A DNA stretch of 64,000 nt from Fibrobacter sp. Its GTDB lineage: Bacteria; Fibrobacterota; Fibrobacteria; Fibrobacterales; Fibrobacteraceae. The stretch lies in NCBI GenBank assembly GCA_024398875.1, contig JAKSIJ010000004.1:62001-126000 (forward strand). Direction: 5' to 3'. Of this stretch, positions 18,412 to 59,217 are shown piece by piece. Numbering within the stretch: the first letter of the stretch is position 1; every line of letters begins with the position of its first letter. The notes beneath the pieces are model-generated. The model ran no database searches and had not been told where the DNA came from. It saw only the letters and a list, made by a program, of their open reading frames with translations. Made by a program: the position numbers and the translations under genes.

Positions 18412-18789
18412 ATGGAAAAGAATTCTAATGTTATTGTTGAAAAAAGTCGGGCATTTGCAATAAATATTGTTCATTTGTATCAGCAGCTTGTGCAAGAGAA
18501 AAAAGAGTATGTTCTCTCCAAGCAAATGCTGAAATCTGGAACGAGCATAGGGGCAAATATACATGAGGCGATAAGAGGTCAGAGTCATGCTGATTTCATT
18601 GCGAAAATGAGCATTTCTTTGAAAGAGGCTTCTGAAACGGAATATTGGATTTCGTTGATGATGGATACTGGTTACATATCCACAGAGAAGGCTCAGCCTC
18701 TACTGAAAGATGTGGAGGAGTTGACGAAAATTCTAGTTAGTATTGTGAAGTCGGCAGAAAAAAGGAAGGGTGTTAAATATGAAACGTAA
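18412..18789 (+). CDS. Four-helix-bundle protein (S23/bAvd-like)
   Basis: A 125-residue all-helical protein of the family first seen in 23S rRNA intervening sequences. Typical signatures are EKSRAFAINIVHLYQQL, LSKQMLKSGTSIGANIHEA and FIAKMSISLKEASETEYW. Relatives include the bAvd accessory protein of diversity-generating retroelements, but no reverse transcriptase or rRNA gene is nearby. The molecular role is unknown. The gene sits between lptD and maf, flanked by inverted repeats, overlaps maf by 11 bases, and is AT-richer than lptD, which together suggest it arrived as an insertion. Confidence 0.88.
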   Translation: MEKNSNVIVEKSRAFAINIVHLYQQLVQEKKEYVLSKQMLKSGTSIGANIHEAIRGQSHADFIAKMSISLKEASETEYWISLMMDTGYISTEKAQPLLKDVEELTKILVSIVKSAEKRKGVKYET

Positions 18790-19498
18790 TTCAACATTGA
18801 CTTCGCCTGATGATAATTCTGCATTCAGCATTCATGAATCAACATTGACTTCGCCTGATGGTAATTCTGCATTCAGCATTCATGAATCAACATTGACTTC
18901 GCCTGATGATAATTCTGCATTCAGCATTCATAATTCAGCATTAATCTTGGCAAGTGGTTCTCCCCGTCGTCGTGAAATCCTCACCCAGCTGGGCATAAAA
19001 TTCCGCGTTCTCGTCTCGGGCGAGGAGGAAAATCCCAAGTGCAAAAATCCTCTGGATTACCCTCGGGAAAATGCGGTGGCGAAGGCCATGGCCGTCTCTC
19101 GCAAGGAGGCGGGCGCAGTGGTTCTCGGGTTCGATACGCTGGTATTTCTCGACGATAAGCCTCTTGGCAAACCGAAGGATGCCGCAGATGCACTCCGCAT
19201 GCTGCAAGCGCTGAACGGTCGTTCGCATAAAGTAATCACGGGCGTCGCCATCGTCCAAGATGGAATAATCCTCGACGCCTCTGAAGAAGAAACTGAGGTG
19301 ATTTTTCGGGAAAACTCCCAACAAGACCTCGAAAATTATGTAAATTCTAAAGACCCGCTGGATAAAGCTGGGGCGTATGGCATCCAAACGCAGGGTGCTC
19401 GCCTCATCCACTCTATTCGCGGCTGCTATTACAATGTGGTGGGGCTCCCCGTGGCTCGCACCCTTGGAATGCTTGAAAAATTAAAGTTGAAGGTATAG
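18779..19498 (+). CDS. maf: Maf-family nucleotide pyrophosphatase with a repeat-derived N-terminal extension
   Basis: The Maf domain starts only at residue 55 with LILASGSPRRREIL, then FDTLVFLDDKPLGKP and KVITGVAIV, and ends at a normal position. Maf proteins hydrolyse non-canonical or modified nucleoside triphosphates. ATG 18779 has AGGAAGGG about eight bases upstream, inside the end of the four-helix gene. Between this start and the domain lie three 16-residue repeats (STLTSPDDNSAFSIHE, with variants) encoded by 48-bp DNA units of the intergenic repeat family. No ATG lies at the usual place, so the native start seems to have been replaced. Whether the extension is kept in the protein is not known. 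Confidence 0.85.
   Translation: MKRNSTLTSPDDNSAFSIHESTLTSPDGNSAFSIHESTLTSPDDNSAFSIHNSALILASGSPRRREILTQLGIKFRVLVSGEEENPKCKNPLDYPRENAVAKAMAVSRKEAGAVVLGFDTLVFLDDKPLGKPKDAADALRMLQALNGRSHKVITGVAIVQDGIILDASEEETEVIFRENSQQDLENYVNSKDPLDKAGAYGIQTQGARLIHSIRGCYYNVVGLPVARTLGMLEKLKLKV
18791..18934 (+). repeat. Three tandem 48-bp repeats inside the maf coding sequence
   Basis: Units start at 18791, 18839 and 18887. Each runs from TCAACATTGACTTCGCCTGA to CAGCATTCATGAA or CAGCATTCATAAT. They are nearly identical and a multiple of three, so the frame stays open. The TTCTGCATTCAGCATTC part is the same as intergenic repeats elsewhere in the window. Confidence 0.95.
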
Positions 19499-22367: not shown

Positions 22368-23219
22368 ATGAAGAAACAACTCACATTCTGCGCTGCCGCA
22401 CTCATTGCATTTGCTATGACCGGTTGCCAAAAGACTGGCACCATCGAAGGTGATGTGCTGGACGCTTTCACAGGCAAGGCTCTCGAAATGCCTACTGTCT
22501 GGTTTGACTCTACCATTTACTCCACCCTGAAGGAAAAGTACAAGTACAAACAGGAACTCCGCAAGGGTCACTTCAAGTTTGAAAACGTTCCCGTTGGCAC
22601 CTATAAGGCCATCGCTGGCCGTTCCAAGTACATCAAGACTCGCAACACCATCACCACTACTGAAGAAAATCCGAACTTGACGGTGAACTTCTACATCTAC
22701 AGTGACCAGGTGGATCCGGGTCTCTACACGGGTTCCGAAGAAGGCCCGAAGAAGATTCAGAATGAATGGGTGATTTGGTCTACCCAGTGCGACGCTTCTG
22801 TTGCTGGTTACCGCATGGAATTCCCGCAGCAGGATGGCTCTGCCAAGGTTCCTGGCAAGCAGGACAAGAAGGCTAAGAAGGGCGCTCCCAAGATGATTCC
22901 GCTTCCGGCACCTCGCGTGATTGACGGCGGCAAACTTGACGTGTTCTATCGCAATGCTTCTTCTGTGACTACTCCGCTTGTTGCTAAGACCTACCCGGCT
23001 GTGGAAGGCGACGTTGCCGCTCACGCTGACTGTAAGGGCTTTGACGCTGCTGACAAGAAGGGCCTCTTTGTGGATAAGGATAAGGCTACTGACCTTAAGG
23101 TTACCTACATTGCAGAAAACCTCTTCAAGATCACTGGCGACCTTCCCAAGGGTAAGCAGATCATCCAGTTCTCTCAGGATGGCAAGACTCTCCAGACCTA
23201 CTATTTCGAGAACAAGTAA
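22368..23219 (+). CDS. Lipoprotein with carboxypeptidase-regulatory-like domain
   Basis: A 283-residue protein with a lipoprotein signal (MKKQLTFCAAALIAFAMTGC). Directly after the cysteine comes a beta-sandwich start, GTIEGDVLDAFTGKAL...GHFKFENVPVGTYKAIAG, typical of carboxypeptidase regulatory-like domains that often bind or scaffold extracellular material. The rest has no recognised domain and a Lys-rich PGKQDKKAKKG stretch. ATG 22368 has GAGGA five bases upstream; 22356 is a less likely start. Its stop is only 25 bases before the leucine leader peptide, so leuL-leuA transcripts may begin inside or before this gene. Confidence 0.75.
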   Translation: MKKQLTFCAAALIAFAMTGCQKTGTIEGDVLDAFTGKALEMPTVWFDSTIYSTLKEKYKYKQELRKGHFKFENVPVGTYKAIAGRSKYIKTRNTITTTEENPNLTVNFYIYSDQVDPGLYTGSEEGPKKIQNEWVIWSTQCDASVAGYRMEFPQQDGSAKVPGKQDKKAKKGAPKMIPLPAPRVIDGGKLDVFYRNASSVTTPLVAKTYPAVEGDVAAHADCKGFDAADKKGLFVDKDKATDLKVTYIAENLFKITGDLPKGKQIIQFSQDGKTLQTYYFENK

Positions 23220-23244
23220 GTCACGAGAATTAGGGCAAAACTTT

Positions 23245-23316
23245 ATGATGCAAAACTTGAACCTTCGACTTCTATGCCTAATCGCTTCTGGAGCGAGGTT
23301 CCAAGGTGTTGTCTAA
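23245..23316 (+). CDS. leuL: Leucine-rich leader peptide of the leuA attenuator
   Basis: A 23-codon ORF, MMQNLNLRLLCLIASGAR then FQGVV, preceded by AGGG nine bases upstream. Codons 5-12 hold five leucines (TTG, CTT, CTT, CTA, CTA). It ends at 23316, 28 bases before a terminator stem, and leuA starts at 23439. Leucine shortage would stall the ribosome on these codons. The RNA segments that would respond are described in the attenuator entry. The gene name is by analogy with enterobacterial leuL; the peptide sequence itself differs. Confidence 0.8.
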   Translation: MMQNLNLRLLCLIASGARFQGVV

Positions 23317-23379
23317 AGCAAAGCGCTAACAGATTTAACCATAAAGAACCCGCTTCCATTCGATGCGGGTTCTTCTTTT
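23259..23379 (+). promoter_or_regulatory. Transcription attenuator of leuA
   Basis: Four segments can pair in exclusive ways. Segment 1 GAACCT (23259-23264) pairs with AGGTTC (23296-23301). Segment 2 GCG-A-GGTTC (23293-23301) pairs with segment 3 GAACCCGC (23346-23353) with one bulged A, giving the antiterminator. Segment 3, extended to AAGAACCCGC, pairs with segment 4 GCGGGTTCTT (23365-23374) to make a terminator followed by CTTTTA. Stalling at the Leu codons covers segment 1 and frees segment 2. Confidence 0.8.
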
Positions 23380-23438
23380 ATGCTAACTTTAAGCATGGAA
23401 AAATCTTGCAGCGTTTTGAGGCGGGCAAGGAGATAAAA

Positions 23439-24992
23439 ATGAACGAAAATAGAAAACCTTTCTTTTACGATGTAACACTCCGCGATGGCAACCAGGCTCT
23501 TCCGAAGCCCTGGAATAATGCACAGAAGAAAGATGTGTACCTGCAGCTTTTAAAGCTTGGGGTTCAGGGAGCCGAAGTGGGCTTCCCGGCATCTTCCGAA
23601 ATGGATTTTGAATCCTGCAAGGAACTGGCGCAACTCACTGCCAAGATGGCCTCTGAGGGCGACGAATCTGCATCCAGAATTGTGGTTTCTGGTTTGGCCC
23701 GCTGTGTGGAAAGCGATATCCAGCGCTGCTGGGAGGCAATTCAGTTTGCGCCGCACCCCCGCATTCATACCTTCCTTGCCACGAGTCCGCTTTCTATGGA
23801 GCATGTGCTGCACTTGACTCCTGCGCAGGTGAAGGAAAAGGCCGTGAAGTGCGTTACCTTGGCCAAGTCCCTGGTGGGTGACAAGGGCGATGTGGAATTC
23901 AGTGCGGAACACTTTGGTGACTGCCTGGAGAACATGGATTTCGTTATCGATGTGTTGAAGGCCGTGGTGGAGGCGGGTGCCACTACCATCAATTTGCCGA
24001 ACACGGTGGAACGCTACCGCCCCAAGCTGTATGTGGACCAGATTCAGCAGGTTTACGAGGCATTGCCCAAGGATGTCACTATTTCTGTCCATTGCCACAA
24101 TGATTTGGGCATGGCGACTGCTGCTACGGTGGAGAGCTTCTTTGTGGGCGCTACCCAGCTGGAAGTGGCTTTGAATGGCCTTGGCGAGCGCTGCGGTAAC
24201 ACCAATTTGTATGAGGTGGCTTTGGGCCTCCACAATTCCGGTGTGGATACGGGCTTGCACCTGGACCGCATTTATGAAACGGCTATTCTCATTAGCCAGT
24301 GGAGCGGCGTGCCTATCTATATCCGCGCCCCGTTGATTGGTGCGGAAGCTATTGTGCACCGTAGCGGCATCCATCAGGATGGCGCCAGCAAGACGAAGGA
24401 TATGAAGAAGGGCGCCTATCGCCCCATCGATTACTCCATCATTGGTCGTAACCAGAATGATTCCCTCAGCTTCACGAGCCAGAGTGGCCGCACTGCCGTG
24501 TACGAAATCATCACCAAGTTCGGCTACAAGATGACCCTGCAGGAGGCCGCGGCTTTGCAGCCTGTGTTGAAGGCTTTGAGCGAGAAGGAAGGCGAACTCT
24601 GCGCAGAACGGGTGCTGGATGTTTTCCGCGAACAGATGGTGAATGTGAATGGCCGCTTGGTGTTCAACAATGTGGAAGTGATTCCCGACGAGAACCGCTT
24701 TATATTCCACTTCAAGAAGGACGGACAGTCTATGGAACGCTCCGTCATGGCTGAAGGTCCAATTGAAGCAGGCCTTATGCTCATGCGCGAAATCCAGATG
24801 CCGGTGGACCTGGTGAAGTATCGCCAGCTGGTAGTGCCCGAGAAGGACAAGATGTGGGCGGGCCGCGGCCTCAGCCGCATGCTTTTGAAGGCTCACGATG
24901 TGGAGCTGGAAGGCCGCGGTGTCAGTAGCGATACCTTGAAGGCCAACATGCGCGCCTTGTTCTGCGGCGTGAACCTGCTTTATAAGAAGTAA
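23439..24992 (+). CDS. leuA: 2-isopropylmalate synthase
   Basis: A 517-residue enzyme that condenses acetyl-CoA and 2-ketoisovalerate in the first committed step of leucine synthesis. The TIM-barrel part has DVTLRDGNQAL, the metal motif HCHNDLGMATA and GLGERCGNTNL; the C-terminal region matches the LeuA regulatory domain. AAGGAGAT five bases before ATG 23439 fixes the start; the longer frame runs into the attenuator. The upstream Leu-rich leader independently supports leucine synthase rather than homocitrate or citramalate synthase. No leuBCD genes follow. Confidence 0.92.
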   Translation: MNENRKPFFYDVTLRDGNQALPKPWNNAQKKDVYLQLLKLGVQGAEVGFPASSEMDFESCKELAQLTAKMASEGDESASRIVVSGLARCVESDIQRCWEAIQFAPHPRIHTFLATSPLSMEHVLHLTPAQVKEKAVKCVTLAKSLVGDKGDVEFSAEHFGDCLENMDFVIDVLKAVVEAGATTINLPNTVERYRPKLYVDQIQQVYEALPKDVTISVHCHNDLGMATAATVESFFVGATQLEVALNGLGERCGNTNLYEVALGLHNSGVDTGLHLDRIYETAILISQWSGVPIYIRAPLIGAEAIVHRSGIHQDGASKTKDMKKGAYRPIDYSIIGRNQNDSLSFTSQSGRTAVYEIITKFGYKMTLQEAAALQPVLKALSEKEGELCAERVLDVFREQMVNVNGRLVFNNVEVIPDENRFIFHFKKDGQSMERSVMAEGPIEAGLMLMREIQMPVDLVKYRQLVVPEKDKMWAGRGLSRMLLKAHDVELEGRGVSSDTLKANMRALFCGVNLLYKK

Positions 24993-58856: not shown

Positions 58857-59212
58857 GGGGGTGCTCTGGTATCGACAGGGTCGCTGAAGTGTTAGTTGCA
58901 AGCCGAGGTCTCAGACGAGGGCACTCGTTAAAAAGTCTGAAAAAAATAAGTGCTGACGAAAACTACGCACTCGCTGCCTAATTAGCGGCAACGCCGGGCC
59001 TCGACTCACTCCCATTGGGTAGTACGTCCGGACGCAATATGGGATAGGGATTTGTAATGCCTGGGTGCAGATTCCGAGATTTACTAGGCTGGCTGAAACC
59101 TGCGCCGACCTTCTTGGGCGTGGGTGAGGCGAGACCTCAAATACGAAGGGAAAGCTTGTAGGAATGTACATGGACGGGATTTTGGACAGGGGTTCGACTC
59201 CCCTCACCTCCA
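58857..59212 (+). ncRNA. ssrA: tmRNA
   Basis: The 5' GGGGGTG pairs with 3' CACCTCC plus discriminator A, and the 3' end has the tRNA-like T arm GACAGGGGTTCGACTCCCCT. CCA is not encoded. The tag reading frame at 58952-58981 gives ADENYALAA then TAA, which ends in the LAA degron recognised by ClpXP-type proteases and is the tag I recall for Fibrobacter. It rescues stalled ribosomes. The length of 356 bases is normal for a one-piece tmRNA. Confidence 0.97.
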
Positions 59213-59217
59213 TAAAT

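Follow-up and report, generated by a model that had tools for sequence, protein, structure and literature searches.

A conserved leucine leader-peptide element, a probable transcription attenuator, upstream of leuA in a class of Fibrobacterota

The leuA gene of a Fibrobacter genome is preceded by an element, at positions 23245-23380 of the 64-kb stretch of DNA analysed here (hereafter the window), that is very probably a classical three-state attenuator of transcription, mediated by the ribosome and setting leuA expression according to the supply of leucine. This reading draws on what can be seen in the sequence, namely a leader, three competing helices, the conservation of these helices, a codon bias and a ribosome geometry. 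It agrees with the three-state attenuator proposed in the first-pass annotation of this DNA, a proposal supported by the conserved leader, antiterminator (2:3) and terminator (3:4). On this basis the element is considered genuine, the representative of a new and well-conserved family with an established type of mechanism and a predicted role in regulation. The features of the locus are collected in Table 1.

Table 1. Predicted features of the leuA leader region and its flanking genes (window positions)
Feature	Position	Strand	Evidence or remarks
Lipoprotein-like gene upstream of leuL	22368-23219	+	
leuL, leader peptide ORF	23245-23316	+	23 codons, MMQNLNLRLLCLIASGARFQGVV followed by stop; Leu-rich homologues in relatives
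Control Leu codons TTG, CTT, CTT, CTA, CTA (codons 5, 7, 9, 10, 12)	23257-23280	+	
Segment 1, GAACCT	23259-23264	+	Pairs with 23296-23301 (AGGTTC)
Segment 2, GGAGCG-A-GGTTC	23290-23301	+	Partner is segment 1 or segment 3
Intrinsic terminator hairpin (3:4) with T-rich tail	23344-23379	+	Folding; arms AAGAACCCGC (23344-23353) and GCGGGTTCTT (23365-23374), tail CTTTTA
Segment 3, GAACCCGCTTC	23346-23356	+	5' arm side of terminator; partner is segment 2 or segment 4
leuA, 2-isopropylmalate synthase (LeuA2 type), putative controlled gene	23439-24992	+	NCBIfam NF042434

The protein encoded by leuA passes the NCBIfam equivalog model with 535.7 bits (cut-off 500), its nearest solved structures are 2-isopropylmalate synthases, and a strong Shine-Dalgarno-like stretch (AAGGAGA) lies just 5' of the gene. 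Translation of the leader ORF agrees with the 23 codons and the five Leu positions described at first pass, and the intrinsic terminator reported there, with its T-rich tail, was located between the leader ORF and leuA; C residues break up the T tail of this copy. Three helices were identified in the window element: a protector (1:2), an antiterminator (2:3) and the terminator (3:4). The pairing of segment 1 with AGGTTC was found where it had been described. The antiterminator, which joins GGAGCG-(A)-GGTTC to segment 3, is mutually exclusive with the terminator and uses the segment adjoining the control codons; it retains the single bulged A noted earlier, and its length has to be corrected from 8 to 11 pairs. 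Once the stretch occupied by a stalled ribosome is left out, the 80 nt of nascent RNA that remain fold into the 2:3 helix.

The structure of the window leader exceeds chance, because folding of the complete leader scores z = -4.1 and was equalled by none of 200 shuffles, the 2:3 complementarity was likewise matched by 0 of 200 shuffles, the element is the sole convincing combination of Leu leader and terminator on both strands of the 64 kb (two other finds are weak matches elsewhere), and it is conserved in relatives.

According to the proposed mechanism, with ample charged tRNA-Leu the ribosome would read the leader to its stop codon and cover segment 2, so that segment 3 would pair with segment 4 and transcription would end before leuA. 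Under shortage of leucine, the ribosome would stall on the CTA/CTT-rich Leu codons and leave segment 2 free to pair with segment 3, allowing RNA polymerase to read through. With no translation, the 1:2 helix would form and the terminator with it.

The position of the ribosome in these states was modelled in 48 species on the assumption that it shields 15 nt to each side of the first base of its P-site codon. In 45 of these species, four or more of the six nucleotides of segment 2 lie under a ribosome that has reached the stop codon, and in all 48 segment 2 is left free by stalls at two or more Leu codons. Folding of the nascent RNA places segment 3 in a helix for 48/48 species when the ribosome is stalled, and leaves it unpaired for 41/48 when the ribosome has reached the stop. 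Across species, the geometry of stop and stall is thus what classical attenuation requires. In the window copy the stop codon lies 12 nt past segment 2, which places GGAGCG just outside the terminating ribosome under the assumed footprint. Since the stop codon is further downstream than the TAG stop of close relatives, the window copy may be leakier than a typical one.

In each of three clades (the genus, other Fibrobacteraceae and other families), 28% of leader residues are leucine. Among the control codons the rare Leu codon CTA is overrepresented, accounting for 140 of 355 leader Leu codons in the genus (39%), 22 of 72 in other Fibrobacteraceae (31%) and 21 of 63 in other families (33%). 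Overall, CTA represents about 31-41% of Leu codons in leaders vs 0.7-4% in genes; gene samples from five stretches across these clades gave 0.7-3.9%, and the value for the genes of the window is 2.4%. The leu attenuator of Salmonella also uses CUA, and its replacement by CUG reduced sensitivity (PMC1183508).

The first-pass annotation had proposed a covariance search of leuA 5' regions and would have counted missing Leu codons or stem conservation in relatives as a refutation, a test that its reading survives. A covariance model built on 26 sequences, representing 22 kinds drawn from the genus and its neighbours, matched 77 of 80 genus genomes, with strong matches at leuA and a single match in the genome from which the window derives; leuA itself was found in 77/80. 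Recognizable forms of the element also stand before leuA in most other genera of Fibrobacteraceae and in three further families, and the Leu leader, the 2:3 helix and the 3:4 helix are conserved both in the genus and in other families. All 69 genus loci with enough upstream sequence carry a Leu-rich leader, followed by a 2:3 partner in the same relative place and a terminator; examples of genus leader peptides are MRKNLNLRLLLCIAHGARF, MNKILDLRLINLLGCASGARAGF, MKKTLNLLLLLRLACGARF and MKKILDLRLLLCIALRDTEARF. Leaders of the same plan were found 5' of leuA in genera g3, g5, g6, g7, g8, g9, g10 and g11 of the family and in families f2, f3 and f4 of the class. No leader was found in genera g4 and g2 or in other classes of the phylum, where several loci were short or LeuA was more distant; the weak model matches obtained there (E 1e-5 to 1e-2) may be due to a chance resemblance of terminator-like sequences. 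One genus genome that is 99% complete (G015) showed neither a leuA match nor a match to the leader element, and leucine synthesis may have been lost in it.

This distribution bears on the simplest alternative, in which the hairpin merely ends transcription of the lipoprotein gene and the ORF is open by chance. As described at first pass, the leader ATG follows the end of that gene by 25 nt; about 125 nt separate the stop codon of the gene from the hairpin, with no other terminator between them. Nevertheless, within the genus the hairpin and leader stay with leuA while the upstream gene differs from species to species, and conservation extends to the Leu content, the CTA bias and the 2:3 pairing; among the leuA loci read, the lipoprotein-like gene has a homologue only in the sister species (L003). 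The conservation with leuA refutes a plain lipoprotein-gene terminator, and we give this alternative a negligible probability.

The pairings themselves were evaluated by several approaches. The genus-level alignment shows helix 2:3 to be 100% paired in its first part, with G-C/A-U/G-U exchange at one pair. Column-wise covariation in the 26-sequence alignment of close relatives gave scores that were reached by 199 of 500 shuffles for 1:2, by 14 for 2:3 and by 15 for 3:4. This signal is weak because the genus sequences are too alike, and a partner-swap test across clades was therefore used. In this test, each of 32 representatives was paired with its own partners and with partners from other species, an arrangement in which effects of relatedness and base composition remain; own partners gave -12.7 kcal/mol vs -8.8 for swapped ones in 1:2, and -15.5 vs -12.5 kcal/mol in 2:3, with 0 of 20,000 permutations as good in either case. 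When swaps were made within groups, the numbers of permutations as good (out of 20,000) were 39 for 1:2 and 236 for 2:3 in the genus, 0 and 42 in other Fibrobacteraceae, and 9429 and 133 in f3/f4, so that 1:2 pairing found no support within f3/f4 in the within-group test. In family f4, segments 2, 3 and 4 change jointly, reading GAGTG/CACTC/GAGTG in most members and GAGCG/CGCTC/GAGCG in L106. Two further tallies, one of the sizes of indels in the interval from the Leu core to segment 2 and one of synonymous and nonsynonymous changes, were set aside, being confounded by the search pattern and by the small number of variable columns.

Analysis of the region 5' of the leader revealed that most relatives carry a promoter (TTGCCA or TTGACA, 17 nt, TATATT) ending 6-7 nt before the leader ATG; promoters in f4 have TATCAT and similar hexamers in place of TATATT. 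Species lacking a promoter match include some in which an earlier ATG inside the spacer had been taken as the start and some with weaker hexamers. With this spacing, the first transcribed base should be the A of the ATG or a neighbour of it, and the leader is probably leaderless in most relatives. In some species, segment 1 includes the start region (in L082, ATGACGAAA with TTTCGTCAT, where the ATG itself pairs), and helix 1:2 might block initiation there, as proposed for Corynebacterium glutamicum.

On the other hand, neither a promoter scan nor a search for TTGCCA/TATATT revealed a promoter before the ATG of the window copy; it is absent at 23220-23245 in both the window species and its sister. 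The window species has lost or replaced the leader's own promoter, and the element probably lies inside a transcript coming by read-through from the lipoprotein gene, the likely source of such transcription in this species. These features raise the alternative of a real family-wide attenuator whose copy in the window species and in its sister is in decay or re-wired: having lost its promoter and gained a longer leader, that copy would now serve as an intercistronic terminator, constitutive or leaky, 3' of the lipoprotein gene. The missing promoter, the unrelated upstream gene and the displacement of the stop codon beyond segment 2 speak for such a change. However, the three helices, the five Leu codons and the CTA codons are all intact, the change in segment 3 relative to the sister species (A to G) preserves both the 2:3 and the 3:4 pairs, and a weak Shine-Dalgarno-like stretch (AGGG) lies 9 nt before the ATG. 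We regard a re-wired copy, and the leaky or constitutive terminator in particular, as unlikely, though it keeps some weight; a working attenuator is the reading preferred here for the window copy as well.

A broader proposal, which we put forward tentatively and hold somewhat less probable than its opposite, is that the class possesses an attenuator acting on leaderless mRNA that starts at the AUG, with the protector helix reaching into the start region, so that the element would read both leucine charging and the ability of ribosomes to initiate. It would then have arisen outside the leu leaders of proteobacteria and actinobacteria and yet use the same rare control codon, CTA, and the trp leader described below would suggest a regulatory habit of the group.

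No Rfam family fits the element, and the site gave no match to the Leu_leader family (RF00512) even at E up to 10; the best match was to RF00506 (Thr_leader), with 26.7 bits vs a gathering score of 55. A riboswitch, a T-box or a protein-binding leader with an incidental short ORF might also account for structured RNA in the 5' region of an amino-acid gene, and a leuA leader mutation in Streptomyces, cited in PMC1262725, behaved unlike the expectation for classical attenuation. Yet no T-box or riboswitch matched the site in Rfam, either at gathering thresholds or at E up to 10, and conservation falls on the Leu codons, the choice of a rare codon and the position of the stop relative to segment 2, not on a compact aptamer; we consider this class of explanation highly improbable. 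The ribosome-mediated reading finds its closest counterpart in enterobacterial leuL (RF00512), which likewise places a Leu-codon leader peptide ahead of leuA, relies on rare CUA control codons and sets a terminator against an antiterminator. The leader peptide of leuL is another one, and the Fibrobacter leader is probably leaderless in most species. The ilvBNC attenuator of C. glutamicum resembles the present element in its three competing hairpins, the first of which could shield the start region, and has its start codon one nt from the transcription start (PMC11857589), much as is predicted for most species here, but it controls ilvBNC through Val/Ile/Leu codons and differs in phylum and sequence. 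The Sinorhizobium meliloti trpL (rnTrpL) transcript starts at the ATG of its leader ORF (PMC7298713), as is likewise predicted for most species here, although it carries Trp codons, precedes trpE(G) and belongs to a different phylum. The actinobacterial LEU element also has a run of Leu codons in an ORF before leuA; for it, a pseudoknot was proposed whose base stem joins the Leu-codon run with the leuA Shine-Dalgarno box, its mode of regulation being unknown (PMC1262725), whereas the Fibrobacter element has an intrinsic terminator with an antiterminator instead of the pseudoknot.

Leader-peptide systems were described by Naville and Gautheret as known only in Proteobacteria and Actinobacteria, to which Firmicutes were added (PMC2965389), and a 2013 survey considered the amino-acid attenuators in Rfam to be probably of gamma-proteobacterial origin (PMC3766115). 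A search of mainly open-access literature, including surveys of bacterial RNA elements, found no report of such an attenuator in Fibrobacterota. Vitreschak and colleagues reportedly predicted some attenuators in Bacteroidetes/Chlorobi in 2004, and for this reason no claim of a first is made for the FCB group. A leucine attenuator conserved across the class in Fibrobacterota, using the same rare codon and probably leaderless, would widen the known range of classical attenuation. These leaders also provide a clean comparative set for the evolution of such switches, a candidate leucine sensor testable in cultured rumen Fibrobacter, and a ready seed for a new Rfam family.

Other biosynthetic loci were also inspected. 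Among 15 related genomes, no clear attenuator emerged upstream of ilvB, ilvD or hisG. In three Fibrobacter species (loci L216, L220 and L222), a leader peptide with a Trp-Trp pair (MMIYATSATLNRRWWRGL and variants) lies about 300 nt 5' of trpE (locus positions about 1194-1330), with a TTGCCA-type promoter just before its ATG and a terminator; it is a probable Trp attenuator, apparently leaderless as well. The genome containing the window (99.3% complete) had no trpE match (TIGR00564), unlike most relatives tested, and may be that of a tryptophan auxotroph; genome G026 had none either. Elsewhere in the window, a 48-bp tandem repeat (18791-18942; 3.2 copies, 95% matches), read in frame as STLTSPDDNSAFSIHE repeats, stands at the start of an ORF (18770-19498) that has the appearance of a maf gene, and a tmRNA gene was located at 58857-59215 (Rfam RF00023, 166 bits).
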